A stretch of 29,626 nt of DNA. Origin: a virus. The stretch is from the IMG/VR virus record IMGVR_UViG_3300010354_000404, positions 1 through 29,626 of that record; one strand, given 5' to 3'. Each line of letters opens with the position of its first letter. Position 1 is the first letter of the stretch. Under the pieces are notes generated by a model. The model did no database searches, had not been told where the DNA came from, and was given only the letters and a program-made list of their open reading frames with translations. This document shows, piece by piece, positions 13,989-25,912 of the stretch. Position numbers and translations under genes: made by a program.

Positions 13989-13990
13989 TT

Positions 13991-14191
13991 ATGAGCAAAT
14001 TTACTAAGCTTCAATTAATGCTAGGACAGGCTCTTAACAAGAGAGCCGATGATCAGCAGGTGGTGGAAGTGATTGACACAATGGCAGAATGGTTTGAAAT
14101 TCTGCTGGAAGATATGGGAGTTGAACCAGCTTCTATTCCATCGCTTCTTCGCTGGCAATATTTACATAGCGACTACATAGGAAATGATTAA
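13991..14191 (+). CDS. Hypothetical small protein
   Basis: 66 residues, MSKFTKLQLMLGQALNKRADDQQ..., helical and acidic. It starts 2 nt after the preceding stop and is followed by a terminator 4 nt after its own stop, so it closes this operon. No family recognised. Confidence 0.55.
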   Translation: MSKFTKLQLMLGQALNKRADDQQVVEVIDTMAEWFEILLEDMGVEPASIPSLLRWQYLHSDYIGND

Positions 14192-14392: not shown

Positions 14393-14450
14393 AGAAAATC
14401 GGCTGATCTTTTATAGCCTACTATCAGCTAACCATCTATAGGCAAAAGAA

Positions 14451-14470
14451 AAAGGGGCCAAAGCCCCTTT
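14451..14470. terminator. Hairpin with CAAA loop, possible terminator
   Basis: AAAGGGGC, CAAA, GCCCCTTT: symmetrical with A- and T-tracts. It could end leftward transcription from the 14594-14758 frame. The loop resembles those of the REP-like repeats in the window. Confidence 0.55.
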
Positions 14471-14593
14471 CTCTTCACAGCCTCCGATACTTGAACACAA
14501 CTAGGGGAAATTTCCGCGCCTAGCAGGGTAGTGTGCCTCTCAGGAGAATGACTAGCTCCTTGGCAAAGCTATGCAGCATCGCCCACACCACCG

Positions 14594-14758
14594 TCAAGCG
14601 TTCACCCTTACGGCCCGCCTTACGACAGGAGCAGCAATTAAGCCGCTAGAACCGACTGCTTGAAAAGCATAGCATCCAGCAGTGCCCTTGACAGTCATGA
14701 CACAATAGTAAGACTGTCGCTCGCGAGGGTGATGGGCCTCTCTAGCTATTTTCACCAT
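14594..14758 (-). CDS. Possible small protein
   Basis: 54 residues from MVKIAREAHHPRERQSYYCVM, ending in a hydrophobic, Ala/Val-rich half (FQAVGSSGLIAAPVV). It would start back to back with the rlpA-like gene with 4 nt between the start codons, which leaves no room for a non-overlapping promoter, so the call is weak. The rest of 14471-14762 shows nothing I can name. Confidence 0.3.
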   Translation of the reverse strand: MVKIAREAHHPRERQSYYCVMTVKGTAGCYAFQAVGSSGLIAAPVVRRAVRVNA

Positions 14759-14762
14759 CTTG

Positions 14763-15119
14763 ATGCTTTCTCGTTTTCTTCTTTCTCTTCTCCTCCTGGC
14801 TCCTACCATCCCTGCCCATGCTGCGTCAAGGCAATGCGGCGAAGCTTCGCACTATGGCGTGGGGGATTCCTATCACGGCCAACGCACTGCCAGTGGCGTC
14901 AGGTTTGATGCCTATGGCTCATCTGCTGCCCATCCATCGCTTCCATTTGGCACGCGCCTGCTCGTTACAAACCGTGACAATGGAAAGCAAACAGTTGTAA
15001 CCATTAATGATCGCGGCCCATACTATGGCAGCCGCATTCTCGATCTTTCCTACGGGAGCTTCTCAAGACTTGCTTCACCAGGGCAGGGGACTGCTCGCAT
15101 TTGCTTCTCTCGCATTTGA
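14763..15119 (+). CDS. Secreted RlpA-like double-psi beta-barrel protein
   Basis: 118 residues. A signal peptide (MLSRFLLSLLLLAPTIPAHA) is followed by the RlpA/expansin-like DPBB pattern: GEASHYGVGDSYHGQRTASG, LPFGTRLLVTNRDNGK, VTINDRGPYYGSRILDLS. Bacterial RlpA binds or cleaves peptidoglycan strands lacking stem peptides; the catalytic Asp in the NDRGP motif is present. In a phage this could help lysis or modify the wall of the infected cell. It overlaps the next, also secreted, gene by TGATG. Confidence 0.8.
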   Translation: MLSRFLLSLLLLAPTIPAHAASRQCGEASHYGVGDSYHGQRTASGVRFDAYGSSAAHPSLPFGTRLLVTNRDNGKQTVVTINDRGPYYGSRILDLSYGSFSRLASPGQGTARICFSRI

Positions 15120-15304
15120 TGACCATGCTCACTAATCTTGCTTCCTTCACGCTTGTCACCACTGCCTTTGGGCTTGGTGCTTTCGCCATTGTTGCTGCCC
15201 CTCAAGCAATGCCCAATCAAGAAGGCTTGACAAAATGTCTTCAGCTCCATCCAGAACGCTATTGCCGCATTGCCAATGGCTTTCCCGTATCGCATAAGCC
15301 GTGA
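15119..15304 (+). CDS. Small exported or membrane-anchored two-Cys protein
   Basis: 61 residues. A hydrophobic N-terminus (MTMLTNLASFTLVTTAFGLGAFAIVAA) that could be a signal peptide or anchor is followed by a short domain with KCLQLHPERYCRIANGFP, whose two Cys could form a disulfide outside the cytoplasm. TGATG coupling with the RlpA-like gene suggests they act at the same place. No named family. Confidence 0.6.
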   Translation: MTMLTNLASFTLVTTAFGLGAFAIVAAPQAMPNQEGLTKCLQLHPERYCRIANGFPVSHKP

Positions 15305-15330
15305 TAGGCTTTGTAACGGAATGTTCTGCA

Positions 15331-15399
15331 GGCCCCTTGACAGGGGCTTTTTTATTGTCTATTGTCTCGCTGGGTGGAACCACGGCCCCTTCGGGGGCC
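15331..15399 (+). promoter_or_regulatory. Terminator-promoter-5' hairpin unit
   Basis: Three elements in 69 bp: a terminator (GCCCC/GGGGC then TTTTTT, 15331-15354), two overlapping-phase TATTGTCT boxes (15353 and 15360), and a stable hairpin GGCCCC-TTCG-GGGGCC (15384-15399) in what would be the 5' leader of the next gene. The C(UUCG)G loop is among the most stable RNA tetraloops. Confidence 0.55.
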
Positions 15400-15421
15400 T
15401 TTCACCAATCCTTTACCAGCG

Positions 15422-15676
15422 ATGGTGCCTCCAATGACTCAAACCCCATTTCTGACGCGCTCTCAACGTGCAATTGCCCGCATGGTGAAAGATGCATCAG
15501 GCTATTCCTTGTCTTGCTACTCTGCCGATGATCGTGCTGCTGCTCGCACTAAGCTTCTGGCCATGGTTTCTAAAGCGCCTGATCACGCCCCTGCCCATAA
15601 GCCAGCAAAGCGCACCAAGGCTTATTTCCGCACGTTAGCTGACAGTATGGAAGATAATATCTGGCGGTATTTGTGA
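15422..15676 (+). CDS. Hypothetical protein
   Basis: 84 residues from MVPPMTQTPFLTRSQ; ATG four codons later is an alternative start. Basic and helical (RSQRAIARMVKDASG, ADDRAAARTKLLAMV, KRTKAYFRTLADSMEDNIW). It begins 22 nt after the TTCG-loop hairpin and overlaps the HicA-like gene by TGATG. No family recognised. Confidence 0.55.
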   Translation: MVPPMTQTPFLTRSQRAIARMVKDASGYSLSCYSADDRAAARTKLLAMVSKAPDHAPAHKPAKRTKAYFRTLADSMEDNIWRYL

Positions 15677-15867
15677 TGGCATTAAATGACAATAGACGCG
15701 CATTGTTTGAGCTCATTAAAAAACATGATTTTGTTCTTCATAGAAAGAGCAAACATTATATTTTTAAGCATTCTTCTGGCAAGACTTTAGTTTGTAGCAC
15801 GAGCTGTACTGATTGGCGAGTGTTGAAGAATGTAGAGCGAGACATTAAGCGTCTATTGTCTTCATGA
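15676..15867 (+). CDS. HicA-like small RNA-binding protein
   Basis: 63 residues. The pattern LFELIKKHDFVLHRKSKHYIFKH followed by GKTLVCSTS and LKNVERDIKRLL matches the double-stranded-RNA-binding-like fold of HicA mRNA interferases; H27 occupies the position of the catalytic His. Classical HicA proteins are toxins paired with HicB. The partner genes here (15422, 15864) do not look like HicB, so it may be an orphan, an antitoxin-free variant or a phage regulatory protein. Fold assignment is by motif only. Confidence 0.55.
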   Translation: MALNDNRRALFELIKKHDFVLHRKSKHYIFKHSSGKTLVCSTSCTDWRVLKNVERDIKRLLSS

Positions 15868-16067
15868 AATTCTCCGTTGGTCTCATAGTTGATCTTTACG
15901 ACTCTGGTTTTAAACAATGGAGAGGAGAATATATCGTGACAAAAGTATATCCTGAAACTTGCCTCTATAAAATAAAGAACACCAAGACAAATAGCCAGCA
16001 GACGGTTAAGGAGAAAGCTCTCCGCATGGGAAGGCTTGGCCCTTTCCGCATTGAGAGTCTCCATTAA
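15864..16067 (+). CDS. Hypothetical small beta-barrel-like protein
   Basis: 67 residues, MKFSVGLIVDLYDSGFKQWRG... The succession of short strands (EYIVTKVYPETCLYKIKN) looks like an SH3/Tudor-type barrel. ATGA overlap with the HicA-like gene suggests co-expression. No family recognised; not similar to HicB. Confidence 0.55.
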   Translation: MKFSVGLIVDLYDSGFKQWRGEYIVTKVYPETCLYKIKNTKTNSQQTVKEKALRMGRLGPFRIESLH

Positions 16068-16118
16068 TTGTTACGAAATATGACAGGCCCCGCTTAAGGG
16101 GCCTTTTTGCTGTATTGT
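16067..16118 (+). promoter_or_regulatory. TTGTTACGAAATAT element, terminator and TATTGT box
   Basis: ATTGTTACGAAATAT (16067-16081) is followed by a terminator (GGCCCC/GGGGCC plus TTTTT, 16086-16108) and TATTGT (16113-16118). The 15-mer recurs exactly at 19381, also upstream of a TATTGT box. The spacing from TTACGA to TATTGT is 42 bp here. Likely an activator site plus -10 box for the genes starting at 16151. Confidence 0.55.
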
Positions 16119-16150
16119 TCTGGAGTCGTCGGGCAGAGATGCCTCCTCTC

Positions 16151-16429
16151 ATGGACAAAACCGCTCTCATTAAGCAGTTCATCTTTAACGCTGGCTCCAG
16201 CATCGTCAGCGTTCAGTTCATCAAAGCTGATGGTTCCGTTCGTAGCCTTCAGTTCAATCCCCGTGATAGCAAGGAAATCAAAGGTACGGGCACTGCCATC
16301 AAGAAGCCCAGCATCGTCCGTTGCCGTGACTTTCGCATTGCCCGCACTGCAGGCGAAGGTGCCTGGCGTTCCTTTGATTGCGAGCGCGTGATTAGCGTTA
16401 AAGCCAACGGCCAAGCTCTTTCTTTCTGA
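16151..16429 (+). CDS. Hypothetical protein
   Basis: 92 residues from MDKTALIKQFIFNAGSSI. The sequence VSVQFIKADGSVRSLQFNPRDSKEIKGTG looks like a small beta-domain that several phages carry (pattern F-x-K-x-DGS-x-R-x-x-x-FNPRD). The start ATG lies in a CCTCTCATG context like many starts in this window; earlier in-frame TTG and ATG codons are less likely. Confidence 0.6.
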   Translation: MDKTALIKQFIFNAGSSIVSVQFIKADGSVRSLQFNPRDSKEIKGTGTAIKKPSIVRCRDFRIARTAGEGAWRSFDCERVISVKANGQALSF

Positions 16430-16432
16430 ACC

Positions 16433-16654
16433 ATGAAACACTATCCCTCCTACGAAGCTCGTTTAGAAGCTGATCGCCAAGCTCAACACAGTGGCTATGG
16501 CATTCAGCAATATATGCTGGCTGATGGTTCCCGCAAGTGGGAAGCTTACGGCTGGGAACGCATCACTGAACTGCAGATCCAGACCACTTCCTATGGCATC
16601 TTTGACCATAAGTGGCAAGCTGAACGCTATTTCAATAACATTCTCCACAGTTGA
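16433..16654 (+). CDS. Hypothetical protein
   Basis: 73 residues, MKHYPSYEARLEADRQAQHSG..., rich in aromatic residues and Gln; beta strands in QYMLADGSRKWEAYGWER. It starts 3 nt after the previous stop. No family recognised. Confidence 0.55.
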   Translation: MKHYPSYEARLEADRQAQHSGYGIQQYMLADGSRKWEAYGWERITELQIQTTSYGIFDHKWQAERYFNNILHS

Positions 16655-16656
16655 TC

Positions 16657-16914
16657 ATGGCTACCATCCCTACTCTCCATCTCAACGGCACTGGCAAAAC
16701 CGCACTCCGTGATGAATATGCTGCTGCTTACGATGCGCTCACCAAAGCCCTAGAAACTTTCGCTTCCACCACTTGCAACGGTAGGGATTTTTATCCACAA
16801 GGCCCTGATGCCTACTATCAAGCTCGTGATGAACGCTCTGAAGCTTTTAGCCACCTAGAAGCAGCGAGGAAATACGTTGGTGAAATATTGATGGGAATTT
16901 GCGATCAAATGTAA
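16657..16914 (+). CDS. Hypothetical protein
   Basis: 85 residues from MATIPTLHLNGTGKTALRDEY. The N-terminal LHLNGTGK looks Walker-like at first sight but lacks the preceding GxxxxGK spacing. The rest is helical (YDALTKALETF, RSEAFSHLEAARKYVGEILM). It is the last gene of the unit starting at 16151 and is followed by an AT-rich gap. Confidence 0.6.
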   Translation: MATIPTLHLNGTGKTALRDEYAAAYDALTKALETFASTTCNGRDFYPQGPDAYYQARDERSEAFSHLEAARKYVGEILMGICDQM

Positions 16915-16940
16915 CAGTTATTAGTAGCCTTGTTGTCAAT

Positions 16941-16958
16941 TATATATATATATATATA
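16941..16958. repeat. (TA)9 dinucleotide tract
   Basis: Eighteen bp of pure TA repeat, the only such tract in the window, in the 157-bp AT-rich gap before 17072. It may ease DNA melting for the downstream gene and would be prone to length variation. Confidence 0.7.
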
Positions 16959-17071
16959 TGATTGTTCTGCTTAAAAAAATAATTTATACAAATTTTTGTA
17001 CTGTTAATTGCTTTGAGCAACTTGCGCTCATCATACAAGCCATTTCTTCTTTTTTTTTCTTAACTAAAACT

Positions 17072-17371
17072 ATGCTTACCATTGCTACTTTCCAGGACAA
17101 CGGCCCCTATTTTCCATGCACGAAAGGCCTCTACCAAGCGGCCCGCTTAAGAGATCTTCTCTTCCACGTGAGGCTTGCCATGGAGGATCGGGAAGATACT
17201 ATTGCCATCTTTGACCAAGAGGGCTCTTGTAAAGGCATCTGGCGCATGATGCTTGAAGGCCACACGGACAGCGCTGGTGATGCCATCATTGATCATGAAG
17301 GTTACGAACTGATGCGTCCTGATACTAAGGAGCAATGGCTTTTTAAGCGTCTTGTGCAGGAACTGCAATGA
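17072..17371 (+). CDS. Hypothetical protein
   Basis: 99 residues from MLTIATFQDNGPYFPCTKG. Alpha-beta pattern with RDLLFHVRLAMEDREDTIAIFDQEGSCKGIW. The ATG after the T-rich run (17050-17061) was chosen; the frame is open 38 codons further upstream, but that part is AT-rich and lacks protein character. ATGA overlap with the next gene. Confidence 0.55.
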   Translation: MLTIATFQDNGPYFPCTKGLYQAARLRDLLFHVRLAMEDREDTIAIFDQEGSCKGIWRMMLEGHTDSAGDAIIDHEGYELMRPDTKEQWLFKRLVQELQ

Positions 17372-17526
17372 TTCTCATTGATTATTTTTCTGAAGATTGC
17401 TGCAAAGGCACTGAACTCATTGAAGGCTGGTATTTCTATGCTGATGATGATGAAAGCTTTGTAGGAGGACCGTTTACCAGCGAAGAAGCCGCCCTAAAGG
17501 CGGCTTTTGATGGTCATGGTTGGTGA
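17368..17526 (+). CDS. Small acidic protein
   Basis: 52 residues, MILIDYFSEDCCKGTELIEGWYFYADDDE... The ending EEAALKAAF is typical of a small phage protein with GPFTSEEAA. The first codons ATGATTCTCATT are identical to the core of the repeats at 17678-17831. Its last codons contain a terminator hairpin (17488-17508). Confidence 0.55.
   Translation: MILIDYFSEDCCKGTELIEGWYFYADDDESFVGGPFTSEEAALKAAFDGHGW
17488..17508 (+). terminator. Intrinsic terminator inside coding sequence
   Basis: GCCGCC, CTAAA, GGCGGC, TTTT, located 18 nt before the stop of the 52-residue gene. Third example in this window of a terminator built into the last codons of a gene. Confidence 0.7.
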
Positions 17527-17538
17527 AAACAAACTGAA

Positions 17539-17596
17539 ACGCGGTAAAGGGACTAAGCAAAAGACGGTATGGGGACTAAGCAGAACGCGGTATAGT
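17539..17596 (+). repeat. Direct repeats ending in a TATAGT box
   Basis: GGGACTAAGCA occurs at 17549 and 17572 (23-bp period), alternating with ACGCGGTA at 17539 and 17585 and a shorter ACGGTA at 17565. The last copy runs into TATAGT (17591-17596). The layout fits tandem activator sites in front of a -10 box, or iterons. No gene follows for about 390 bp. Confidence 0.6.
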
Positions 17597-17634
17597 AAAC
17601 CCCCCCTAAAAGGGCGGTTTTCGGCCCGCCGCCA

Positions 17635-17792
17635 GTACACTTGTACCACTCACTAGTACGTTTGCACTACTGCCGCAAATGATTCTCATTCTCAATAGGC
17701 GCTAGTACGTTTGTACTACTATGCGGCTATGCGCATACACGCATACACGCCTATTGCGACTGATTCTCATTCTCAATAGTATGTTTGTACTA
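17635..17792. repeat. GTAC dyads, left cluster (four copies)
   Basis: GTACA-CT-TGTAC at 17635-17646, then three dyads of form TAGTAC-GTTT-GTACTA at 17654-17669 (one mismatch), 17703-17718 (perfect) and 17777-17792 (one mismatch). Constant 4-bp spacer GTTT suggests a dimeric DNA-binding protein. Similar dyads reappear at 22085-22124, beyond the other end of the biased island. Confidence 0.7.
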
Positions 17793-17831
17793 GTCTCTCC
17801 CTAGTTGCGAATGATTCTCATTCTCAACTAG
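17678..17831. repeat. Three Fur-box-like repeats
   Basis: TGATTCTCATTCTCAA occurs at 17680, 17761 and 17812. The third copy holds a dyad GAATGA-TTC-TCATTC. Flanking arms are inverted and covary: CTATTG/CAATAG in the second copy, CTAGTTG/CAACTAG in the third. The core resembles the Fur consensus GATAATGATTCTCATTATC in its middle. It could be an operator, an iteron or part of an origin. The stretch 17832-17934 has repeated GCGCATA/CGCATA words and no gene. Confidence 0.65.
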
Positions 17832-17934
17832 CCCCGTCTGGCTCCCATGCTTTTATGCGCCTATACGCATACGCGCATTGTTAAGAGATGTGACAATACG
17901 GCTCCGCGCCTCTGGCCTCCCTCCTCCTTCTCTC

Positions 17935-17961
17935 TATTGTCTCTCCTGACGGGCGACCGTC
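17935..17961 (+). promoter_or_regulatory. TATTGT box plus 5' GCGA hairpin, island unit 1
   Basis: TATTGT (17935-17940), 7 nt, then GACGG-GCGA-CCGTC (17948-17961). The hairpin begins where transcription would start, so the mRNA would have a 5'-terminal stem with a GNRA-type loop. TGTGACAAT lies 44 bp upstream of the -10 box. A run of nine C follows. The ATG of the first island gene is 30 nt after the hairpin. Confidence 0.65.
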
Positions 17962-17990
17962 TCCCCCCCCCTCTCTCTGTTCTGGCTCTC

Positions 17991-18365
17991 ATGTTCTCCT
18001 CTTCTCTCAGAGGCCCTGCCTCTCCCTCCTTCCCTCCTCTCTCTGACGCGCTCGAGGCGCTCTCCTCTCTCCCATGGGAGGCGATCGCCTCTCAGGCTCT
18101 CGAGGCACTTCTCTTCTCCCTGGCTCTCTGCCATGCTCTCGCCGCTCGCCTCTGGCAGGCTCGAGGCCGTCTCGCTCCTCTACTTCGCTCTGTAGCCTCC
18201 TCGCTCGAGCGCTTCGCCTCCGCTCTGCCCGAGCCTCTCTCCTCCTCCTCTCCTCGCGCTCTGCTGATCGAGGCTCTGACAGAGGCAGGAGAGAATGCTC
18301 CCGCTCTGGCGAAGGCCTCCCGCTCCGCTCTCCTTCGTCGCGCCTCTCGCCTCGGCCTCCTCTGA
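17991..18365 (+). CDS. Island protein 1, low-complexity helical
   Basis: 124 residues from MFSSSLRGPASPSFPPLSDALEAL. Made mostly of Leu, Ala, Ser, Arg and Pro, with predicted helices (LFSLALCHALAARLWQARGRLAPLL). The ATG follows TGGCTCTC and lies after the hairpin promoter, so the longer frame opening at 17847 is rejected. The coding strand is very A-poor (4 A in 60 nt at 18181-18240). The HIP1 palindrome GCGATCGC lies inside. No family recognised; reality rests on start context, promoter and operon fit. Confidence 0.55.
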   Translation: MFSSSLRGPASPSFPPLSDALEALSSLPWEAIASQALEALLFSLALCHALAARLWQARGRLAPLLRSVASSLERFASALPEPLSSSSPRALLIEALTEAGENAPALAKASRSALLRRASRLGLL

Positions 18366-18379
18366 GGCTATGCTCTCCC

Positions 18380-18397
18380 GGAGGCCGCGAGGCCTCC
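18380..18397 (+). promoter_or_regulatory. Intergenic hairpin with GCGA loop
   Basis: GGAGGCC-GCGA-GGCCTCC, a perfect 7-bp stem between island genes 1 and 2. Without a T-tract it is not a classical terminator; RNA processing, mRNA stability or translational control are possible. Confidence 0.65.
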
Positions 18398-18424
18398 CCC
18401 TCCCCTCTCTGTTCTCTGGCTCTC

Positions 18425-18658
18425 ATGCTCCGCTCTGCTCTCGCCGTTCTGGCTCTGTTCGCTCCTGCCTCGGCGCTCGCCTCTCCTCTGATCGTGGCTC
18501 CTCACGAGCCAATGGTTCGCCTCGAGGCTCTCCCTCATCTCGGCGCCTCTCGCTTCTCAACTGTTCAGCATTGCATCTCCGTGGCAGATGCTGAGCTCTC
18601 TCTCATCACCGATAGCGAGCTCGAGACGGTCGAGGCCTGCCTCCTTGAGCACACCTAA
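18425..18658 (+). CDS. Island protein 2, secreted
   Basis: 77 residues. MLRSALAVLALFAPASALA is a good signal peptide with an A-x-A-type cleavage site, followed by a small exported domain (SPLIVAPHEPMVRLEALPHLG and later FSTVQHCISVADAELSLITD), which has less biased composition than its neighbours. The start is in the shared GGCTCTCATG context. Probably exported to membrane or periplasm; function unknown. Confidence 0.6.
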   Translation: MLRSALAVLALFAPASALASPLIVAPHEPMVRLEALPHLGASRFSTVQHCISVADAELSLITDSELETVEACLLEHT

Positions 18659-18704
18659 GGCGCTCGCCTCCTCCCCTCCTTTCTGTTCTCTCGCTCTCCT
18701 TCCC

Positions 18705-18902
18705 ATGGCTCCTACTCACGAGATCAGCGCCTCTGATCTCTCCTGGCCTCGGTTCTCCTTCTCCTCTCGCCGCGAGGCCGCTATGTTCGCTCGCGAGCTC
18801 GAGGAGGAGCTCTCCTCCCCTTCTCTCTCTCCTGAGGCTCGAGCTGAGACAGAGGAGGCGCTCGAAGAGCTCCTCTCCCTCCTGTTCTCTCCCGTTTCCT
18901 GA
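18705..18902 (+). CDS. Island protein 3, acidic helical
   Basis: 65 residues from MAPTHEISASDLSWPRFSFSSRREAAMF. After a short N-terminal part it is an acidic amphipathic helix set (ARELEEELSS, ARAETEEALEELLSLLF). A small AGGCG/CGCCT hairpin overlaps the upstream stop (18658-18669). No family recognised. Confidence 0.5.
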   Translation: MAPTHEISASDLSWPRFSFSSRREAAMFARELEEELSSPSLSPEARAETEEALEELLSLLFSPVS

Positions 18903-18911
18903 GGCTCTGCC

Positions 18912-19196
18912 ATGCTCTCCCCTTCTGAGCTCGCCTCGCTCTGTTCTGCCGTAGAGAGCGAAGGCCGCGCCTTCTCTCCTTCTGAGCTCGAGGCCGCGCT
19001 CGCGCTCCCTCCTCGCTCTGGCCTCTCCCTTCAGGAGAGGCGCCTCGCCACGATCGAGCGCCTCCTCCCTCGCCTCTCAGGAGAGGCAGAGGAGCGCCTC
19101 CTCCGTGAGAGGCGCTCTCTCCTTCGTCTCATCCACGAAGTGCCGCTCTCTGTTGAGCTCCCGCTCTCTGTTCGCTCTGCTGATCTCTCCTCCTAA
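18912..19196 (+). CDS. Island protein 4, extreme amino-acid bias
   Basis: 94 residues, of which 71 are Leu, Ser, Glu, Arg or Ala; none is Lys, Asn, Trp or Tyr. Helical throughout (LSLQERRLATIERLLPRLSGEAEERLLRERRSLLRLI). It starts 9 nt after the preceding stop and is followed 10 nt later by the next ATG, so the spacing is operon-like. It shows the biased island alphabet most clearly. Function unknown. Confidence 0.5.
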   Translation: MLSPSELASLCSAVESEGRAFSPSELEAALALPPRSGLSLQERRLATIERLLPRLSGEAEERLLRERRSLLRLIHEVPLSVELPLSVRSADLSS

Positions 19197-19206
19197 GGCT
19201 CCTCTC

Positions 19207-19377
19207 ATGGCTCTCCCCTCTTATCTCCGCGCTCGTCTCATCGATCGAGCCGAGGAGCTCGGCCTCTCCTCCTCTGGCCTCCCCTTCCTCCTTGAGGAGC
19301 TTGCTCGCTGGCTTCCTACTGCCACGATCGAGGCCTTCCTCCTTGATCTCGAGGAGCTCTCCTCTGCTGATCTCTGA
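19207..19377 (+). CDS. Island protein 5, helical
   Basis: 56 residues, MALPSYLRARLIDRAEELGLSSSGL... with LLEELARWLPTATIEAFLLDLEEL. Trp, Tyr, Thr and Ile residues give it a more ordinary protein character than its neighbours, as if the biased composition had been laid over a real small helical protein. Start in TCCTCTCATG context; last gene of the first island unit. Confidence 0.55.
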   Translation: MALPSYLRARLIDRAEELGLSSSGLPFLLEELARWLPTATIEAFLLDLEELSSADL

Positions 19378-19380
19378 CGG

Positions 19381-19466
19381 ATTGTTACGAAATATTTTAA
19401 AAGGAGCGGGAGGCTCTGGCCTCCCTCTCTGGCCTCTGTATTGTCTGTTCAGACGGGCGACCGTCT
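19381..19466 (+). promoter_or_regulatory. TTGTTACGAAATAT element, TATTGT box and GCGA hairpin, island unit 2
   Basis: ATTGTTACGAAATAT (19381-19395) repeats the 16067 element exactly. A GGGAGGC-TCTG-GCCTCCC hairpin (19408-19425) follows, then TATTGT (19439-19444), 6 nt, and AGACGG-GCGA-CCGTCT (19451-19466). The TTACGA to TATTGT distance is 54 bp. The ATG is 21 nt after the hairpin. Confidence 0.65.
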
Positions 19467-19487
19467 TACCTTTCGCTTTCTGTTCTC

Positions 19488-19727
19488 ATGCTTCGCTCCG
19501 CTCGCGCTCTCGCTCCTGCGTTCGCTCTGTTCGCGGGCTTTGTAGGTTTCGGCCTCTGCGCCTCCTCTTATGGCTCTCGCATCGTTCTCGCTCCCTCCGC
19601 TCGAGAGGCTGCTCCTTTTGCTGTCCCCTTCGCTCTGTTCGCTTCTGCTGCTGCTGCCTCCTTCGCTCTCGCTGCTACTGCCTCTTGCGACGCTGCAGAG
19701 AAGCTCTCCCGCTCTCGCCTCTCCTGA
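19488..19727 (+). CDS. Island protein 6, membrane protein
   Basis: 79 residues. Two hydrophobic segments, LAPAFALFAGFVGFGLCA (about 8-25) and PFAVPFALFASAAAASFALA (about 43-62). The N-terminus MLRSA is shared with the secreted island protein 2, which suggests related or convergent export signals. It is the first gene after the second hairpin promoter. No family recognised. Confidence 0.55.
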   Translation: MLRSARALAPAFALFAGFVGFGLCASSYGSRIVLAPSAREAAPFAVPFALFASAAAASFALAATASCDAAEKLSRSRLS

Positions 19728-19733
19728 GGCTCT

Positions 19734-19753
19734 GGCCTCCCCCTGGGGAGGCC
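19734..19753 (+). promoter_or_regulatory. Intergenic hairpin
   Basis: GGCCTCCCC-CT-GGGGAGGCC: a nine-base self-complementary arm pair between island genes 6 and 7. No T-tract follows, so it is not a typical terminator. It fits the pattern of GAGGC/GCCTC-armed hairpins in island gaps. Confidence 0.6.
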
Positions 19754-19779
19754 TTCTCTCTGTTCGCCTCGCTCCTCTC

Positions 19780-19992
19780 ATGCTCTCCCCTATCGATCGA
19801 GCCTCTGACGCGGCTCCTCTGCTCTCTCTCCTCGCGCTCTCGCGAGGCCTTCGCCTCGCCTTCGATCGTGGCTCCTACCTACTGATCGAGACGGCCTCCC
19901 CCTCGATCGCTCACGAGAGCCAGAGCCTGCCAGAGCTCGAGGCCTTTCTCCTCTGGCTCCCTCTCGCCTCTGCCCCTCTCCTTCTCTCCTGA
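19780..19992 (+). CDS. Island protein 7
   Basis: 70 residues, MLSPIDRASDAAPLLSLLALSRGLRLAF... The middle has DRGSYLLIETASPSIAHESQSLPELEAFLLWLP, with less biased composition. Start in the TCCTCTCATG context; a GCGA-loop hairpin begins at the stop codon. No family recognised. Confidence 0.5.
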   Translation: MLSPIDRASDAAPLLSLLALSRGLRLAFDRGSYLLIETASPSIAHESQSLPELEAFLLWLPLASAPLLLS

Positions 19993-20006
19993 GGCCGCGA
20001 GGCCTC
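19991..20006 (+). promoter_or_regulatory. Intergenic hairpin with GCGA loop
   Basis: GAGGCC-GCGA-GGCCTC, overlapping the TGA of island gene 7 and ending 22 nt before the GP88-like ATG. Same loop and near-identical stem as the hairpin at 18380. Confidence 0.65.
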
Positions 20007-20028
20007 CTTTCTCCTCTCCTTCTTTCTC

Positions 20029-21144
20029 ATGACTCCCGCTCTCCTAGCTCCTCCCGCTCCCGTCTCCCTCTCTCGCGCTCCTCGAGCGCCTCAGGAGCTC
20101 CGCTCCTTCCTTTCTAGGTTCGGCCTCTCTTTAGAGAGCCTCCTCACTTCAGGCTCTGCTAATGCCAAACTCGCGAAGGGGAGCGGCCTCGCCTTCTCCT
20201 CAATCTTGCATCTCCTCCCCTCTCGCGGCCTCGCTCGAGCTGTCTCTCCTTCTTCTCATGCTTCGCCCGTGAGAGGCGAGCTCCCCGGCCTCCGTGCTCT
20301 GGCAGAGAAGGAGGGGCTCCTCACTCGCGCTCTCCTCTTTGATGCTTGCCCCTTCGCCTCTGATTCGTGCAAAGAGCTGTGTCTCGCATACAGTGGACAC
20401 GGAGGCATGAGTCAGAGCGTGGGAGCCTGCAGAGCTCGGCGTTCGCTTGCGCTCCTCGATGATCGTGAGGCCTTCGCTCGCTCTCTCCTATGGGCGATCG
20501 GCCTCTCTTACCGAAAGGCTCGGCGCCTCGGCCTCCCCTTCGCCCTTCGCCTCAATGGCACACAAGAGCTCCCCTGGACAGAGGCCTGGCTCTCTGTTCG
20601 CCTCTCTCCTGCAGAGGCTGCGGCTCTCTCCGCTCTGTTCGGCTCTCCCATTGACTGCGGCATCCGTACCATCCCCGAGGCGCTCGCCTCTGTCCCCTTC
20701 CTCTCTCTGTACGACTACGCGAAGGCTCCTCTCTATGGACGCTCTGGCCTCCTCGCGATGAGAGAGGCAGGCATCCATACAACAGCCTCTCTCGCTGCTG
20801 ATCGTGAGGGGGGCGCCTCTCGCGCTCTCGATGCCATTGAGGCAGGCTTCTCTCTCGCCGTGCCGATCCTGGCCAGCAAGGGACAGGAGCTCCCTCGCTC
20901 CCTCCTCCTACGCGATGATCGAGGGAGAGAAGCTCTCCTGCAGTGCGTCGATGGAGACGCTAATGATCTCAGAATGCTCGATCCCTCCCCCGCTCCTGGC
21001 TTCTCTGGCCTCGCCGTCCTCCTCCGTCTCAAGCGATCGAGAGGCGCCTCTCCTGAAGCCGCTCCTCGCTTCGCTCTCGCTCCTGGCTCTGGCGCCTTCG
21101 CTCCCATGGCTGGTGGCGGCTCCTTCGCCTTCTCTCGCATCTGA
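20029..21144 (+). CDS. GP88-family phage protein in biased composition
   Basis: 371 residues. It matches the pattern of the phage gene-product-88 family: NAKLAKGSGLAFSSILHL (residues 45-62), CPFASDSCKELCLAYSGHGG (C107, C114, C118), an ARRSLALLDDREAFARSLL-like segment, and FALRLNGTQELPW (171-183). The family's function is unknown; the Cys set could bind metal. Between HL and the first Cys lies a Leu/Ser/Ala-rich stretch (about 64-105) that seems longer than usual. Conserved positions are kept while the remaining positions drift to Leu, Ser, Ala, Arg and Glu. It is the strongest evidence that the island encodes real proteins. Confidence 0.75.
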   Translation: MTPALLAPPAPVSLSRAPRAPQELRSFLSRFGLSLESLLTSGSANAKLAKGSGLAFSSILHLLPSRGLARAVSPSSHASPVRGELPGLRALAEKEGLLTRALLFDACPFASDSCKELCLAYSGHGGMSQSVGACRARRSLALLDDREAFARSLLWAIGLSYRKARRLGLPFALRLNGTQELPWTEAWLSVRLSPAEAAALSALFGSPIDCGIRTIPEALASVPFLSLYDYAKAPLYGRSGLLAMREAGIHTTASLAADREGGASRALDAIEAGFSLAVPILASKGQELPRSLLLRDDRGREALLQCVDGDANDLRMLDPSPAPGFSGLAVLLRLKRSRGASPEAAPRFALAPGSGAFAPMAGGGSFAFSRI

Positions 21145-21155
21145 GGCGCTCGATC

Positions 21156-21386
21156 ATGGCTCTCCCTCTCTTCTCTCTCACCGCTCGCTCCTACTACGGA
21201 CACGATGAGACGATCGCCTCCTTCTCTTCTCTCGAGGAGGCAGAAGAGGCGCTCTCCTCCCTTCTCTCAGAGATCGATGAGGCCTCCCCTTCTCGCGCCT
21301 CCTTCCTTCGCTCCCTCGCCTCTCAGCTTGAGGAGCTCCTCCTCGAGGCCTCAGAGCCAGAAGAACAAGAGGAGCTCCTCTTGTGA
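21156..21386 (+). CDS. Island protein 9, acidic helical
   Basis: 76 residues. A beta-like N-terminus (MALPLFSLTARSYYGHDETIASF) is followed by long acidic helices (LEEAEEALSSLLSEIDEA, LRSLASQLEELLLEA, EEQEELLL). It starts 11 nt after the GP88-like stop and overlaps the next gene as GTGA. No family recognised. Confidence 0.55.
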   Translation: MALPLFSLTARSYYGHDETIASFSSLEEAEEALSSLLSEIDEASPSRASFLRSLASQLEELLLEASEPEEQEELLL

Positions 21387-21610
21387 TTCGCTCCTATCTC
21401 CTCCCCTCTCGCTCCTCTCGCTCCTTCCTCATCGTCTCCCGCTCCGCTCCTCCCGGCCTCCCTCTCCTCGCTCGCTTCGCCTCATGGCGCTCCCGTGAAA
21501 GCGGCTTCCTCTCTCTCCTCTCCCTTCGCCTCCCTGGCCTCTGGCTCCTCCTCCTTCGTTCCTTCCCCTCTCAAGCTCGTCTCAAGCGGATTAGCTACCC
21601 CCCGTGCTAG
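21383..21610 (+). CDS. Island protein 10, basic hydrophobic
   Basis: 75 residues from GTG (GTGA overlap), MIRSYLLPSRSSRSFLIVSRSAPPG... with a hydrophobic stretch (FLSLLSLRLPGLWLLLL) and many Arg. Possibly membrane associated. Its composition makes open frames likely by chance, so it is less certain than its neighbours; the overlap junction is the main support. Confidence 0.4.
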   Translation: MIRSYLLPSRSSRSFLIVSRSAPPGLPLLARFASWRSRESGFLSLLSLRLPGLWLLLLRSFPSQARLKRISYPPC

Positions 21611-21640
21611 CGGCCTCTCAGGCCTCTCCCATAGCCTCTC

Positions 21641-21675
21641 AAGCCCGTCTCCTGAGACCTCAGGATGACGGGCTT
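21641..21675 (+). terminator. Long terminator hairpin at island end
   Basis: AAGCCCGTC, inner stem CCTGAG/CTCAGG, then GACGGGCTT. Together 15 bp with a single mismatch region. It follows the last rightward island gene by 30 nt and is the end of the long rightward unit. No long T-tract (CTT). Confidence 0.65.
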
Positions 21676-21766
21676 CTTAACGCTTGAGCTCCCGCTCTGG
21701 CTCTCACGAGATGAGGGAGAGAGAGCAATGCCATTATGCGCATAGCGTCATAACGCAAGATAAAGA

Positions 21767-21794
21767 AAAGCCGACCTCAGAGGTCGGCTTTTAA
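21767..21794. terminator. Bidirectional terminator at the convergent junction
   Basis: AAAGCCGACCTC-AG-AGGTCGGCTTT with T-tract on both strands. It lies between the end of the rightward island genes and the end of the leftward island gene (21798), and can stop both. Confidence 0.8.
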
Positions 21795-21797
21795 TTG

Positions 21798-21950
21798 TCA
21801 GTCTAGAGGGAGCTCTAGAGCCTCGAGTTCAGCGATCGTGGCGCGGACCCTAGCGAGGGTCTCGACTGTCTTGCGCTCGCTCTCGAGATGCTTCTGCTCG
21901 AGCTCGGCGAGGCGAGCGGCGAACAGAGAGGCGATCGAGGGGGATGCCAT
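21798..21950 (-). CDS. Island protein 11, leftward coiled-coil protein
   Basis: 50 residues from MASPSIASLFAARLAELEQKH, a continuous amphipathic helix (ERKTVETLARVRATIAELEALEL), probably a coiled coil. The ATG at 21950 was chosen over one 14 codons upstream because the longer form would place the promoter hairpin (21973-21990) inside the gene. It is the only leftward island gene and contains Lys and Gln, which the rightward proteins mostly lack. Confidence 0.55.
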   Translation of the reverse strand: MASPSIASLFAARLAELEQKHLESERKTVETLARVRATIAELEALELPLD

Positions 21951-21972
21951 AGCGGATTGTCGAGGGGCAGGC

Positions 21973-22036
21973 GAGACGGTCGCCCGTCTCATCAGAGACT
22001 ATAGGCGAGATCAGCGCCGATCTCGGCTGATTGTCA
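21973..22036 (-). promoter_or_regulatory. TATAGT box plus GCGA hairpin, island unit 3 (leftward)
   Basis: On the minus strand TGACAA (from 22036), 33 bp, TATAGT (22003-21998), 7 nt, then the hairpin GAGACGG-GCGA-CCGTCTC (21990-21973). The ATG is 22 nt further on. Same order and spacing as the two rightward units, in mirror orientation. Confidence 0.65.
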
Positions 22037-22084
22037 CAATTCGTAACATAAGGCTTGCCTATGCTTGCCATAAGCTGAGCTGAT

Positions 22085-22124
22085 GGTACAAGTGTACCAG
22101 GGAGCAGTAGTACGGCAGTACTAC
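22085..22124. repeat. GTAC dyads, right cluster
   Basis: GGTACA-AG-TGTACC (22085-22098) and GTAGTAC-GGCA-GTACTAC (22107-22124), both perfect. They are the same two dyad classes, in the same order, as on the left side of the island (17635 and 17654/17703). Confidence 0.7.
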
Positions 22125-22203: not shown

Positions 22204-22686
22204 CCAATCAAGAGAATTCACGATGGCGCGTCCTACTGCTTCTGTGACTAGTTTTAGCTCTTCATGAGATGCATCGTTTTTGATTGCATTGGCTCGGTGG
22301 CTGATTATCCACACATTGCCTTTTACGTAGCCTTTTAAGGGATCAATGCGATCTAGAGAAGGGCTATTAGGAAGAGTCAAATGACCATTATTCCTATGGG
22401 TAGACCATTCAAGGGGAATATTAAAAATCGGACAATGAGAAGGGATTATTGATCGTATATATGCGTGATCAATATCAAAAGCAATTCCTTTGTCCTTTGC
22501 TCGTCGGCGAGCATTGCAAATCATGTTATTAGTTTGCCTCAGTATCGGATTTGCTTGCTGATATTTTTTCCTACATTTTTTGCACTGACCCTCCAGTCCA
22601 TCGAACTGGCCTTTATTTTGGTAAAACTGATCAATGCTTTTAACAATGCCACACTTAGAGCAGCGCTTTTCTGGCAAGGCGGTCAT
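22201..22686 (-). CDS. HNH homing-type endonuclease with N-terminal zinc module
   Basis: 161 residues. An N-terminal zinc ribbon (CSKCGIVKSIDQFYQN...QCKKC, residues 9-39) is followed by the HNH-like core PSLDRIDPLKGYVKGNVWIISHRANAIKND (about 109-138), the pattern of phage and intron-linked HNH enzymes. It lies immediately right of the biased island, beyond the bracketing dyads, in normal base composition. It may mark a mobile junction. It starts 8 nt into the region that is then gene-free until 23276. Confidence 0.8.
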   Translation of the reverse strand: MTALPEKRCSKCGIVKSIDQFYQNKGQFDGLEGQCKKCRKKYQQANPILRQTNNMICNARRRAKDKGIAFDIDHAYIRSIIPSHCPIFNIPLEWSTHRNNGHLTLPNSPSLDRIDPLKGYVKGNVWIISHRANAIKNDASHEELKLVTEAVGRAIVNSLDW

Positions 22687-23019
22687 TTGTAAGAAGCATT
22701 TGCAAAACTATAACCAGCAAAAACCTAGTGGCACTATGCCGAAAGCAAGCCATAGGCGCCGCTTGAGGCATTTCAGACGATTAGCTTCTCCAATGGAAGC
22801 GCCCCAAAGGCGCTGGAATGACGCACCAGAAAAAGCATTTTCCTTTCCATTGTTCTTAGTAAAAAGGCGGCCCAAAGCCGCCGTTCAAGCTTTTAAAGAT
22901 AGACAAAAACCAAAAAAGCGCTTTCCTGGCAAATTCGCACACTATGGGCGACTCATCACATGAGACTGAGTCAGCTCTTGATTGATTGGCGCGGGCCTTT
23001 TATTTTTCGCCGCTTGTCT

Positions 23020-23045
23020 AGATGCTTCGCCCTTTGGGGGGCTCA
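23020..23045 (-). repeat. REP-like palindromic repeat, copy C
   Basis: On the minus strand it contains AGCCCCCCAAAGGGCGAAGC, one C longer than copies A and B in the 10.5-kb region. Inverted relative to them. Confidence 0.55.
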
Positions 23046-23086
23046 GCGTGTCTAGCTTTTCGCGGCTTGCTTGACCTTTTGTCAGT

Positions 23087-23112
23087 AGACGCTCCGCCCT
23101 TTGGGGGCTACG
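23087..23112 (-). repeat. REP-like palindromic repeat, copy D
   Basis: On the minus strand it contains AGCCCCCAAAGGGCGGAGCG, identical to copy A over 20 bp. Followed by CTACGCTCGCTT, another short repeat-like word. Confidence 0.6.
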
Positions 23113-23224
23113 CTCGCTTAAGGCACTGGCTTAAGGAGCGTCGTCTAGCCAGGAAGCTGCACTTAGCTTGCATGAAGCAGCAGCTTCGCCACGTCTATCG
23201 TAACTCGCGTTGTCGGGAGTTGTT

Positions 23225-23254
23225 TTGTCCCTTTTGTCCCGATCCTGTTATAGT
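23225..23254 (+). promoter_or_regulatory. Extended -10 promoter for the GIY-YIG gene
   Basis: TTGTCC, 18 bp, TATAGT, with TGT just before the -10 (extended -10). A purine-rich GAGGAG lies 7 nt before the ATG at 23276, one of the few clear Shine-Dalgarno sequences in the window. Confidence 0.65.
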
Positions 23255-23275
23255 GCGGGTTTACGAGGAGCATCA

Positions 23276-23971
23276 ATGGTTCAGCAGAAGCCTTTAAAGC
23301 GCAAAACCAGCGGATGGGTGTACGTTGTTCAGTGGGCATCCATGCCATGGCACGTCAAAATTGGCTTTTCCAAGTCATTGAAAGATCGTTTTGCTTCTTT
23401 TCTCACGGCATCGCCTGACACGCTGGTAGTAATCAAGGCTTTTGAAGCGGATCAGGACTATGAAACAGAACTACATGGACGTTTCTATGCGCTGAGGGAT
23501 GTGGGCGAATGGTTTCGCCTTTCTCCATCGTTAAAAACTTATTTAGAAAGCGAAGCGCCTTGTCAAACGCTTGAAGCAAAAGTCAAGTTTGGTGGTGAAT
23601 ACGAAACTCGCATTAAATGGATGCCCATGCGCCCAGAGTTATCAGGGGCGCTAGAAAAACTGCATCAAGAAAAGCGCTTGCCGCGATTTGTTAAAAGCGC
23701 CAGAATTTATGTGTTATGGGCGATTAATGATATTGAGACATGTGATTGCTTTGTTACGTCCAATGGCATTATTCATCACGAGGCAAATCGTGATGCTTAT
23801 CAGGCTAAAACTATTTACAACCAACTCATCACATTGGAGGAAGAGGGATTAATAGAGAAAACATCCAGAAAAACCTTTGCGTTATTGCCCAAGGGAGAGG
23901 GGGAGCTGATCAAGGCAGAAAGGGATGGAGTGCAGAAGCGCAAAAGCGCACGAAGCTTAAGGCTTGATTAA
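23276..23971 (+). CDS. GIY-YIG (T5orf172-like) protein with C-terminal winged-helix-like region
   Basis: 231 residues from MVQQKPLKRKTSGWVYVVQW. The pattern GWVYVVQWASMPWHVKIGFSKSLKDRFASF (13-42), ETELHGRFYALRDVGEWFRLS (about 63-83) matches the T5orf172/MUG113 branch of GIY-YIG nucleases: Y-V, K-I-G, R, E and EWF are the expected positions. The C-terminal part (about 165-225, YQAKTIYNQLITLEEEGLIEKTSRKTFALLPKG) looks like a winged helix for DNA binding. It has its own promoter and ribosome-binding site. Likely a homing or host-directed endonuclease, or a regulator using the same fold. Confidence 0.7.
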   Translation: MVQQKPLKRKTSGWVYVVQWASMPWHVKIGFSKSLKDRFASFLTASPDTLVVIKAFEADQDYETELHGRFYALRDVGEWFRLSPSLKTYLESEAPCQTLEAKVKFGGEYETRIKWMPMRPELSGALEKLHQEKRLPRFVKSARIYVLWAINDIETCDCFVTSNGIIHHEANRDAYQAKTIYNQLITLEEEGLIEKTSRKTFALLPKGEGELIKAERDGVQKRKSARSLRLD

Positions 23972-23992
23972 ATGAGAAAAATGTATTAAATA

Positions 23993-24238
23993 ATGCATGC
24001 ACAATTTATGAGACGAACTAGCGTGGTAAAACTACGGACTATTCCCATGTTTGGTTTGCCAGAACGCCAGCCATTTAACTATGGTCCCTATAAACTATGG
24101 CCATGTTTCAGCAAGCCTGAGTTCCAATGGTTTGCAGCGATAGACGGAGCTCCTCATTACTTTCGGAGCTTGAACGAAGCAAAGCTTTTTATTAAAGACC
24201 GTCTCTCCATGGAAGATGCTGAAAATCTTTGCGACTAA
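23993..24238 (+). CDS. Hypothetical protein
   Basis: 81 residues, MHAQFMRRTSVVKLRTIPMFG... with FQWFAAIDGAPHYFRSLNEAKLFIKDRL, a strand-strand-helix pattern like small phage modules. It ends in a TAATG junction with the next gene. No family recognised. Confidence 0.55.
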   Translation: MHAQFMRRTSVVKLRTIPMFGLPERQPFNYGPYKLWPCFSKPEFQWFAAIDGAPHYFRSLNEAKLFIKDRLSMEDAENLCD

Positions 24239-24378
24239 TGACTGAAGAAGAAATGAAAGCTTTTGTCCATCGTTCCATTCGTGAGCATGAGCTGCGTGTG
24301 GCACTATGGTCTGGCCTGCTTGGCGCTGCGTTAATGGCTGGCACTTGGCATGCCATTTGGTTATGTCGTCTTCCTTAA
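24238..24378 (+). CDS. Small single-span membrane protein
   Basis: 46 residues, MTEEEMKAFVHRSIREHELRV then a hydrophobic segment (about 23-43, ALWSGLLGAALMAGTWHAIWL). Start overlaps the preceding stop (TAATG). Two terminators follow. Function unknown. Confidence 0.55.
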   Translation: MTEEEMKAFVHRSIREHELRVALWSGLLGAALMAGTWHAIWLCRLP

Positions 24379-24382
24379 GAAA

Positions 24383-24448
24383 GCCCTTGGAAAAGGGCGT
24401 TTACGCTAGCCTTCCTTAGTTGATCGTCGGGGGGCAGCGCCCCCTTTT
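24383..24448 (+). terminator. Two terminators directly before the nrdA-like gene
   Basis: GCCCTT-GGAA-AAGGGC (24383-24398) and GGGGG-CAGCG-CCCCC then TTTT (24430-24448). The second ends only 8 nt before the ATG of the reductase gene, so either the gene is expressed from readthrough or the hairpin is part of its leader. Confidence 0.65.
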
Positions 24449-24456
24449 GTTGTCTC

Positions 24457-25890
24457 ATGAGCCTGAAAGAAAAAGCAAAGTGTGAGCCAATTGCACGCAC
24501 TGGTAGGGTGCAAGATTGGATGGACAGCCCTGAGAGTCGTCTACCAGTTTCGTGTACAACTTTTGTAGTGGAAGATGACATGGAAGCGCCAGATGGCATT
24601 GAAGCCTCTTGGCGTTTTGTAAGCCATGGACTACGCAATGCCGCTGGCGTAGCAGTACATCTTTCTAAGCTTCGTGCCAAAGGAAGTGACAATGGGAAAG
24701 GGCTTATTGCAAGTGGCCCCGTAAGCTTTGCGACTATTTATAGCAAGCTCAATGAAATCTTGCGTCGCGGTGGAAAATTTCGCAATGGGGCAATTACGCT
24801 TCATCTTGATTATTTCCATCCTGATGCCATTGAATTTGTCAAAGCCTCTCGCAATGAACTGCCTTGGGCAAAGCGTTGTTTGAATGTTGACAGCGATTTT
24901 CTCGACAAAGCATCGCCCGAATTAATCGCTGCCTGCTTGAAAGCAATTGCAAATGGTGATTTGTGGCTGACAAAAATTAGTTATGACAAAAATGGCAATC
25001 GTATTTATGGAAATGTTTGCCTTGAAATTTTGATTCCCCATCGTGGCACTTGTCTGCTTGAGCATATTAATCTTGGCGCTTGTTCCATTGACAATCTTGA
25101 AGGTGCTTTTATTGCTGGTATGACAGAACTATGCGCATTGCATGGACGCACTGGAGTGGGCGACACTGGTGAATATCTTTCTCCTGAAATTGACAAACAA
25201 GTGGGCTTAGGCGTGCTTGGCTTAGCCAATTTTCTTTCCATCCATGGAATTAGCTACAAGGAATTTGGCGATGCCATTGAGGCTTATTTAATGGATGATC
25301 CCCATCCTTGGGCTCACCATTGGACTGATACCGTAGCCGGAAAAGCCGTCTACGCTTTTGACAAAGGTCTTCGCTCTGCTGCTGAGGTGGCGCGTGAGAA
25401 TGGGATGGAGCGGGCTTTTACCATTGCTCCTACCGCCTCATGCTCCTACCGCTACTTAGACACTCGCGGCTTCACCACCGCGCCAGAAATTGCTCCTCCC
25501 ATTGATCGCATTGTTGATCGGGATAGTGAAACCATGGGCGTGGAGCGCTTTGAGTATGGACCAGTGGAAATTGCCGAGGAAGTTGGCTGGGAAGTCTTCA
25601 GGAAAGTAGCAGATGGCATCATGCGCCTAATGGGGCGCACTGGCCTTCTTCATGCTTATTCCATGAACTGGTGGTCTGATCTTGTTGCCTGTGACGAAGC
25701 ATTTCTTCGCGACTGGCTGCAAAGCCCACAAATTTCCTTGTATTACGCTCTCCAAGTGCAAACTGGCACTCAAGCCAAGGACGATGTTGGAGTAGAATTA
25801 GGGGAGAGTCTGACCGATTTCTTCGGGCTAGAAAGCGAGCCACAAGCTTGCTCTATGGAAGCAGGATTTTGCAGCAGTTGCGCTGAATAA
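24457..25890 (+). CDS. nrdA: Ribonucleotide reductase, compact class I alpha subunit
   Basis: 477 residues. It reduces ribonucleotides to deoxyribonucleotides. Catalytic set: C33 (LPVSC), N186-V-C188-L-E190 (thiyl radical site with partners), C199 (second redox Cys, in CLLEHINLGA), PTAS motif at about 330, YY pair in SLYYALQ (about 433) for radical transfer, and a C-terminal CSSC (C472, C475) that regenerates the site. The YY pair and an adjacent nrdB-like gene indicate class I. Typical alpha subunits are about 700 or more residues; here the ATP-cone and N-terminal helical domain are absent, so allosteric activity control is probably lost. Start in the TGTCTCATG context. Confidence 0.85.
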   Translation: MSLKEKAKCEPIARTGRVQDWMDSPESRLPVSCTTFVVEDDMEAPDGIEASWRFVSHGLRNAAGVAVHLSKLRAKGSDNGKGLIASGPVSFATIYSKLNEILRRGGKFRNGAITLHLDYFHPDAIEFVKASRNELPWAKRCLNVDSDFLDKASPELIAACLKAIANGDLWLTKISYDKNGNRIYGNVCLEILIPHRGTCLLEHINLGACSIDNLEGAFIAGMTELCALHGRTGVGDTGEYLSPEIDKQVGLGVLGLANFLSIHGISYKEFGDAIEAYLMDDPHPWAHHWTDTVAGKAVYAFDKGLRSAAEVARENGMERAFTIAPTASCSYRYLDTRGFTTAPEIAPPIDRIVDRDSETMGVERFEYGPVEIAEEVGWEVFRKVADGIMRLMGRTGLLHAYSMNWWSDLVACDEAFLRDWLQSPQISLYYALQVQTGTQAKDDVGVELGESLTDFFGLESEPQACSMEAGFCSSCAE

Positions 25891-25912
25891 TCCTCTTCTT
25901 TCGTTTAATTGA

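Follow-up and report, generated by a model that had tools for sequence, protein, structure and literature searches.

The window analysed here is a complete IMG/VR virus record of 29,626 bp (IMGVR_UViG_3300010354_000404), which carries between 17,896 and 22,022, the edges given by a 3-state Markov segmentation, an island of reduced nucleotide vocabulary. GC content steps from about 46% to 60–67% and back across this island, which is A-poor and made of CTC/GAG words. CTC or GAG is found 61–98 times per 500 nt, as against about 13 in the flanks and at most 37 in host loci of Cyanobium and Synechococcus, and the 5-mer entropy deficit is 0.93–1.19 bits in this and other CTC-type islands versus 0.23–0.29 in the flanks of the window phage. 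About ten small genes, including one for a GP88-family protein, lie on the plus strand and a single gene, M, on the minus strand (Table 1, where L054 is a relative whose island has another, GCCC-rich vocabulary, or dialect).

The island had been noticed in an original prediction made from the sequence alone. Its counts, 18 GCCTC or GAGGC in 18001-18371, four A in 18181-18240, and 71 of 94 residues Leu, Ser, Ala, Arg or Glu without Lys, Asn, Trp or Tyr in the gene at 18912, were reproduced, and its sharp edges are those of the segmentation. The base, k-mer and codon analysis that it proposed showed a bias stronger than first described, extending over genes and gaps as claimed, since it is present at codon positions 1, 2 and 3 and in the non-coding leaders. 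The description of a C/T-rich plus strand is correct for the plus-strand genes and fails for gene M, which lies on the minus strand and reads as GAG-rich from the plus one, so both orientations share the CTC/GAG vocabulary.

Table 1. Features of the island and its borders in the window.
Feature	Position	Strand	Basis or remark
Left anchor gene, 52 aa	17368..17526	+	Constant left-hand neighbour of the cassettes, by which the locus was catalogued
23-bp iteron array, consensus AAACACGGTATAGGGACTAAGCA	17537..17595	.	Tandem Repeats Finder
Operator array: matches to LexA box RGTACNNNDGTWCB at 17634 and 17704, near-matches, TGATTCTCATTCTCA repeats, ATGCG..CGCAT palindromes	17634..17880	.	
Conserved promoter-like box GTTAAGAGATGTGACAAT, left edge	17878..17898	+	Left-edge comparison of the family
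CTC/GAG-vocabulary transcription unit(s)	17896..21722	+	Segmentation, words
Leader hairpin GACGG-GCGA-CCGTC, GNRA loop, 50 nt past the box	17948..17961	+	Spacing and covarying stems in relatives
Gene A, 124 aa	17991..18365	+	55% identical homologue in GCCC-dialect island L054
Gene B, 77 aa, signal-peptide-like N terminus	18425..18658	+	No family found
Gene C, 65 aa	18705..18902	+	
Gene D, 94 aa, reduced-alphabet example of the original prediction	18912..19196	+	
Gene E, 56 aa	19207..19377	+	69% identical homologue in L054
Internal promoter-like A/T-rich break GATTGTTACGAAATATTTTAAAA and second leader-hairpin copy GACGGGCGACCGTC at 19452	19379..19465	+	Sequence, motif
Gene F, 79 aa, hydrophobic N terminus	19488..19727	+	Homologue in L054
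Gene G, 70 aa	19780..19992	+	
GP88-family protein, 371 aa, PF17338 / phrog_1617	20029..21144	+	Profile match
Gene H, 76 aa, acidic, Leu/Glu-rich	21156..21386	+	
Gene I, 75 aa, GTG start	21383..21610	+	66% identical homologue in L054
Terminator-like hairpin AGCCCGTC...GACGGGCT	21645..21682	+	Sequence
Bidirectional terminator-like hairpin AAAAGCCGACCTCAGAGGTCGGCTTTT between convergent units	21766..21793	.	Sequence
Gene M, 50 aa, coiled-coil-like, CTC/GAG vocabulary	21798..21950	-	Ordinary-composition allele at the same place in relatives
Third leader-hairpin copy, GACGGGCGACCGTC	21975..21988	-	
Promoter-like box TGTTACGAATTGTGACAAT, right edge	22022..22045	-	
Two LexA-box matches GGTACAAGTGTACC, AGTACGGCAGTACT, right edge	22085..22122	.	

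Both the plus and the minus unit start behind a shared promoter-like box, GTTAMGnnnTGTGACAAT, and the island edges coincide with these boxes. Identity between the window and L054 is 80–90% up to about 17,890 and then about 38%, a drop right after the box which places it at the edge of the cassette. Across relatives the leader hairpin lies 48–52 nt downstream of the left box and 37–39 nt downstream of the right one; its stem letters vary with pairing kept, and the GCGA/GAGA loop is kept in most.

The motif RGTACNNNDGTWCB, the published cyanobacterial LexA box (PMC3091678), occurs in 50 loci 34 times within 400 nt to the right of the anchor gene (20 kb in total) and 6 times in the 412 kb elsewhere, all six at the right edge of CTC islands. 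The locus is thus bracketed by operators matching a host-type LexA box near a promoter, a candidate host-LexA (SOS) regulated unit. Peptidase_S24 proteins (protease-repressors of LexA/CI type) were absent from the contigs of eight long relatives, one of which has an integrase. Phage GIL01 is an example of a phage controlled by host LexA (PMC4551915), and such phages likewise have host SOS boxes at a phage promoter; here, in contrast, the boxes bracket an accessory cassette of phages mostly without integrase. The 23-bp iterons left of the operator array (GGACT..GC.AAA.CGGTA and GGACT...CGGTA units) are found at the same place in L003, L012, L016, L022 and L054, and are a possible replication, resolution or cassette-exchange site. 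In the left flank of L011 (6753-7082) tandem CTTAACCT-like units resembling a cyanobacterial Pho box stand in place of LexA boxes; TGAGAATNATTCTCA (Fur-box-like) and TGATACGNNNCGTATCA palindromes occur in other relatives. Judged by these motifs, the locus resembles an assortment of operators for host regulators.

The window being a whole metagenome record by itself, an abrupt change of composition raises the question of a chimeric contig. The same kind of island, 3–4 kb long, was found in 29 other viral contigs (L002–L030), many from separate metagenomes, which encode a GP88 protein with best-segment identity of 59–93% to that of the window. Junctions and gene order are common to all of them, so the island is not an assembly artefact, and a chimera, which the original prediction had itself considered, or a sequencing error is barely conceivable. 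The left anchor gene is encoded by 99 viral loci, 80 of which were kept for the catalogue; the loci compared are phylogenetically non-independent.

The terminase of a 74.9-kb relative (L018/G001) is 77% identical to that of Synechococcus phage S-CBS4 (HQ698895), and the RecA-like ATPase of the window is 60% identical to its S-CBS4 counterpart. The order of the thyX, dcd, exonuclease, RecA-like, rlpA and ribonucleotide reductase (RNR) genes is also kept, and these shared core genes and synteny make the family S-CBS4-like cyanosiphoviruses. S-CBS4 differs in having no island, no GP88 and no operator array at the same place, and BLAST of the island DNA against phages gave no match. From S-CBS4 alone, whose host is Synechococcus CB0101, the host of the window virus is probably a picocyanobacterium.

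The GP88 gene is still recognisable, as had been claimed: its product matches PF17338 with 39.2 bits (curated cut-off 24.4, E 9.3e-10), retains a conserved Cys triad and DGD..D motif, and is under purifying selection (ratio of non-synonymous to synonymous substitution rates versus relatives about 0.14–0.3). Other family members, in L031, L032, L056 and L065, differ in lacking the vocabulary. A structure model with a predicted local distance difference test score of 88 gave no fold match in the PDB (best E 0.056), and a scan of bacterial genomes for GP88 gave none. GA/GGC motifs of another phage had suggested a 7-deazaguanine DNA-modification enzyme of the DpdA2 type (phage nt-1); this candidate was rejected on homology (hhalign probability 0.1, no common Pfam hit).

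Codon usage or tRNA adaptation, or low complexity of the proteins, would be in line with the Leu/Ser/Ala/Arg/Glu-rich products and with the share of CTC among Leu codons (74%) and of GAG among Glu codons (85%). Synonymous codons were shuffled within each gene, with protein and codon usage held fixed. In the window island CTC was observed 411 times versus 323 after permutation (z = +13.8; GAG, z = +6.2), and the pooled GP88 genes of nine relatives gave z = +18.9 for CTC and +15.2 for GAG, with GCCC/GGGC the most avoided tetramers. GCTC/GAGC and AGAG/CTCT likewise stayed in excess after permutation. CTC is distributed over the codon frames as 159/125/127, with equal density in the non-coding gaps. 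Since the excess survives permutation and occurs in every frame and in the leaders, the bias is not codon usage, codon choice does not explain it, and this explanation is contradicted and highly improbable. Repeated 10-mers in GP88 reached 4.4 times (direct) and 5.8 times (inverted) the codon-permuted level, versus 1.4 and 1.3 times in the flank RNR gene. The earlier claim that DNA words and not protein selection shaped the island was in agreement with these results; the single signals that it named were not borne out.

The second dialect was met in L054, which was found by a search with a flanking gene and whose flanks are 80–89% identical to those of the window. At the same place, with the same LexA boxes, it has homologues of A, E, F, GP88, I and M (48–69% identical; about 50% between the GP88 proteins of the two types) in a cassette of GCCC/CTGC words depleted in CTC. 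The loci found with the L054 GP88 are all rich in CCC/GCC-type words (38 of 38), with GCCC at 5–7.5 times background in 37 and only 2.7 times in L188, and GGCC at 4–12 times in most. Codon permutation confirmed word-level preference and CTC avoidance in the GCCC type, and the CTC dialect of the window avoids GCCC: the two dialects avoid each other's words. The island is thus a cassette that is swapped at one locus. Sub-lineages have their own hexamers, and dialect distance rises with GP88 distance, to 0.34 at 40–55% identity; for the RNR and ferritin-like genes of the flanks it does not exceed about 0.12. A Chi-, primase- or packaging-type signal, as originally proposed, is unsupported, because there is no single conserved word and the same locus exists in dialects with other words.

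Further occupants of the locus were seen. CTC-rich genes unrelated to GP88 lie at L058:5638-7492, in a sub-dialect that avoids TCGA/CGAG, which is favoured by the dialect of the window, and the L056 and L065 cassettes have a distant GP88 and nearly ordinary composition; the vocabulary is therefore a property neither of GP88 nor of the locus alone. At L063:6736-7452 the occupant is a DUF7178 protein (E 2e-45); many octamers recur there, always in direct orientation. Gene M has ordinary-composition and CTC/GAG alleles at the same position, which mix freely with CTC islands (right ends of L005, L010, L018 and L054); the ordinary allele stands beside CTC islands in L005, L010 and L018. Inside the CTC island of L022 (1900-2460) an ordinary-composition gene lies between 22-bp direct repeats GTCTCTTCTTCGCTTCTCTTCT.

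Word z-scores correlate with those of the reverse complements at 0.63 in the CTC type and 0.59 in the GCCC type, versus 0.34–0.46 in flank and host gene controls, so the bias is largely strand-symmetric and double-stranded DNA words are indicated. Selection on the transcripts would instead keep mRNAs A-poor and CUC/GAG- or GCCC-rich, so as to resist RNase or to bind an RNA-binding protein under stress-induced expression, and the vocabulary would set in where the transcript begins, after a protective 5′ hairpin. The positionally fixed, covarying GNRA leader hairpin and the coincidence of the edges with promoter-like boxes and terminators keep this explanation in play, as do the strong pyrimidine skew of the sense strand and the words of gene M in its own orientation. 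RNA selection does not require near strand symmetry, however, orthologous transcripts are served by a different dialect with different words, and folding in the island is ordinary (mean z about −0.5, as in the flanks), and on this ground RNA secondary structure was rejected as the driver. We regard the transcript-level explanation as unlikely, if a serious contender. Searches of Rfam gave nothing above cut-off.

Directed mutation had also been suggested. A purely positional hotspot fits poorly, because the ordinary gene M, 0.1–0.2 kb from CTC islands, and the ordinary L022 insert adjoin or sit in such islands. A cassette-specific mutational process (biased repair or replication), lowering word diversity while the dialects drift apart neutrally, remains a rival; it would produce strand symmetry, lineage-specific lexicons, repeated k-mers in both orientations and a dialect distance that grows with GP88 divergence. 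It is rather improbable in our judgement, given that ordinary DNA of the same replicon lies only a few nucleotides away, that no mutator gene was recognised, and that close pairs differ mostly by single-base substitutions, clustered only modestly, a pattern on which template-switch patches were also rejected.

The DNA outside the islands (window 1-17500 and 22300-29626, and the flanks of relatives) avoids CCGG (observed/expected 0–0.6), CGATCG (0–0.6) and GTAC (0.2–0.6), as expected from host restriction or methylation. CCGG avoidance is common to islands and phage flanks and is not seen in the host; restriction avoidance as the cause of the dialect, one form of the nuclease escape first proposed, was rejected on this ground. 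The HIP1 word of cyanobacteria has CGATCG as its core, and this hexamer is 6–8 times over expectation in most CTC islands. Avoidance could act more broadly if the cassette were insulated by shunning many forbidden words (spurious promoters, host regulator sites, restriction sites), with a small host-dependent vocabulary left and the edge operators alone in control. TA, AC, GT and A/T-rich −10-like words are indeed few in CTC-type islands, operator-like palindromes crowd the edges and are missing inside, and CCGG avoidance extends into the islands. The positive excess of CTC, GCCC and GGCC goes beyond avoidance, the CGATCG excess runs the other way, and cassettes of ordinary composition have the same operators; we therefore give insulation a small chance.

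Among 711 outgroup-polarised synonymous changes CTC or GAG was gained 128 times and lost 170 times, a loss/gain ratio of 1.33 versus 7.0 under random synonymous mutation of the same genes. The neutral expectation assumed uniform synonymous mutation with transition/transversion ratios of 1–4, and the parsimony flux test is an approximation, known to overstate losses, a bias that works against the conclusion of maintenance, not for it. For GCCC words in the second type the ratio was 2.15 versus a neutral 4.6 (n = 790), and CTC there showed 63 gains and 63 losses where neutral change would gain about twice what it loses, so that avoidance of the other dialect's word is maintained as well. The CTC/GAG bias is actively maintained by a current force. 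A signature near equilibrium, not decaying toward the recipient, excludes a fossil of gene transfer.

A host, plasmid or satellite bearing such a signature genome-wide might recently have donated the island; the GC content of 62–70%, like that of Cyanobium, the sharp edges and the cassette swapping would agree with this. Among six Synechococcus/Cyanobium loci of 11–21 kb each, however, none came near the CTC density, so the host as source of the signature was rejected, as was the earlier proviso that the host might share the composition throughout. The island persists, moreover, down to 60% GP88 identity between phages whose flank synonymous sites are near saturation, and it shares the CCGG avoidance of the phage, unlike the host; together with the equilibrium of synonymous changes, this makes recent transfer very improbable.

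The reading we favour, tentatively and at somewhat less than an even chance, is selection on short double-stranded DNA words that holds each cassette lineage, of the window and L054 types, to its own reduced vocabulary. The island is a swappable accessory cassette at a fixed locus of S-CBS4-related picocyanobacterial siphophages, bracketed by LexA-box-matching operators, in which synonymous sites and leaders would be selected for words, CTC/GAG here and GCCC/GGCC in the alternative. A sequence-recognising factor, encoded by the cassette or the host, would read these words, tell cassette DNA from other DNA and thereby protect, mark or silence the cassette. That selection and not mutation is the force, and that a factor reads the words, we infer. 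Several points weigh against word selection. A word of 3–4 nt is too short for ordinary specific recognition, and no factor that reads the words was recognised, the cassette genes having no resemblance to a nuclease, methylase or nucleoid protein. Within the plus-strand operon CTC greatly outnumbers GAG, so that part of the effect follows transcript sense. The L056 and L065 cassettes do without the vocabulary, and the rest of the phage genome shows no difference between carriers of the two dialects. Any factor therefore does not act genome-wide; genome-wide adaptation of carriers to their dialect was rejected, none being seen. As a doubtful extension of word selection, the dialects may be a dense cassette identity tag by which the factor separates self from non-self cassettes, hence the mutual word avoidance.

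Chi, FtsK-orienting polar sequences and DNA uptake sequences are 8–12 nt long, strand-polar and present genome-wide at about one per kb. The cassettes resemble them in word selection across coding and non-coding DNA, partly strand-aware, and differ in having words of 3–6 nt every 6–8 nt, confined to one 3–4 kb cassette and in alternative dialects. No precedent was found in open-access papers, and the phenomenon appears to be new.

The state of synonymous sites is usually put down to mutation, codon usage or RNA structure. In this case an ongoing word-level force holds orthologues at a single locus to two low-diversity vocabularies. If identified, this force would prove to be either a novel means by which DNA composition is read in conflicts between phage and host or between phages, or a cassette-limited mutational machine, and either outcome warns against taking composition islands as simple gene transfer. 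An identity tag, if true, would be a composition-based recognition unlike restriction-modification or CRISPR.

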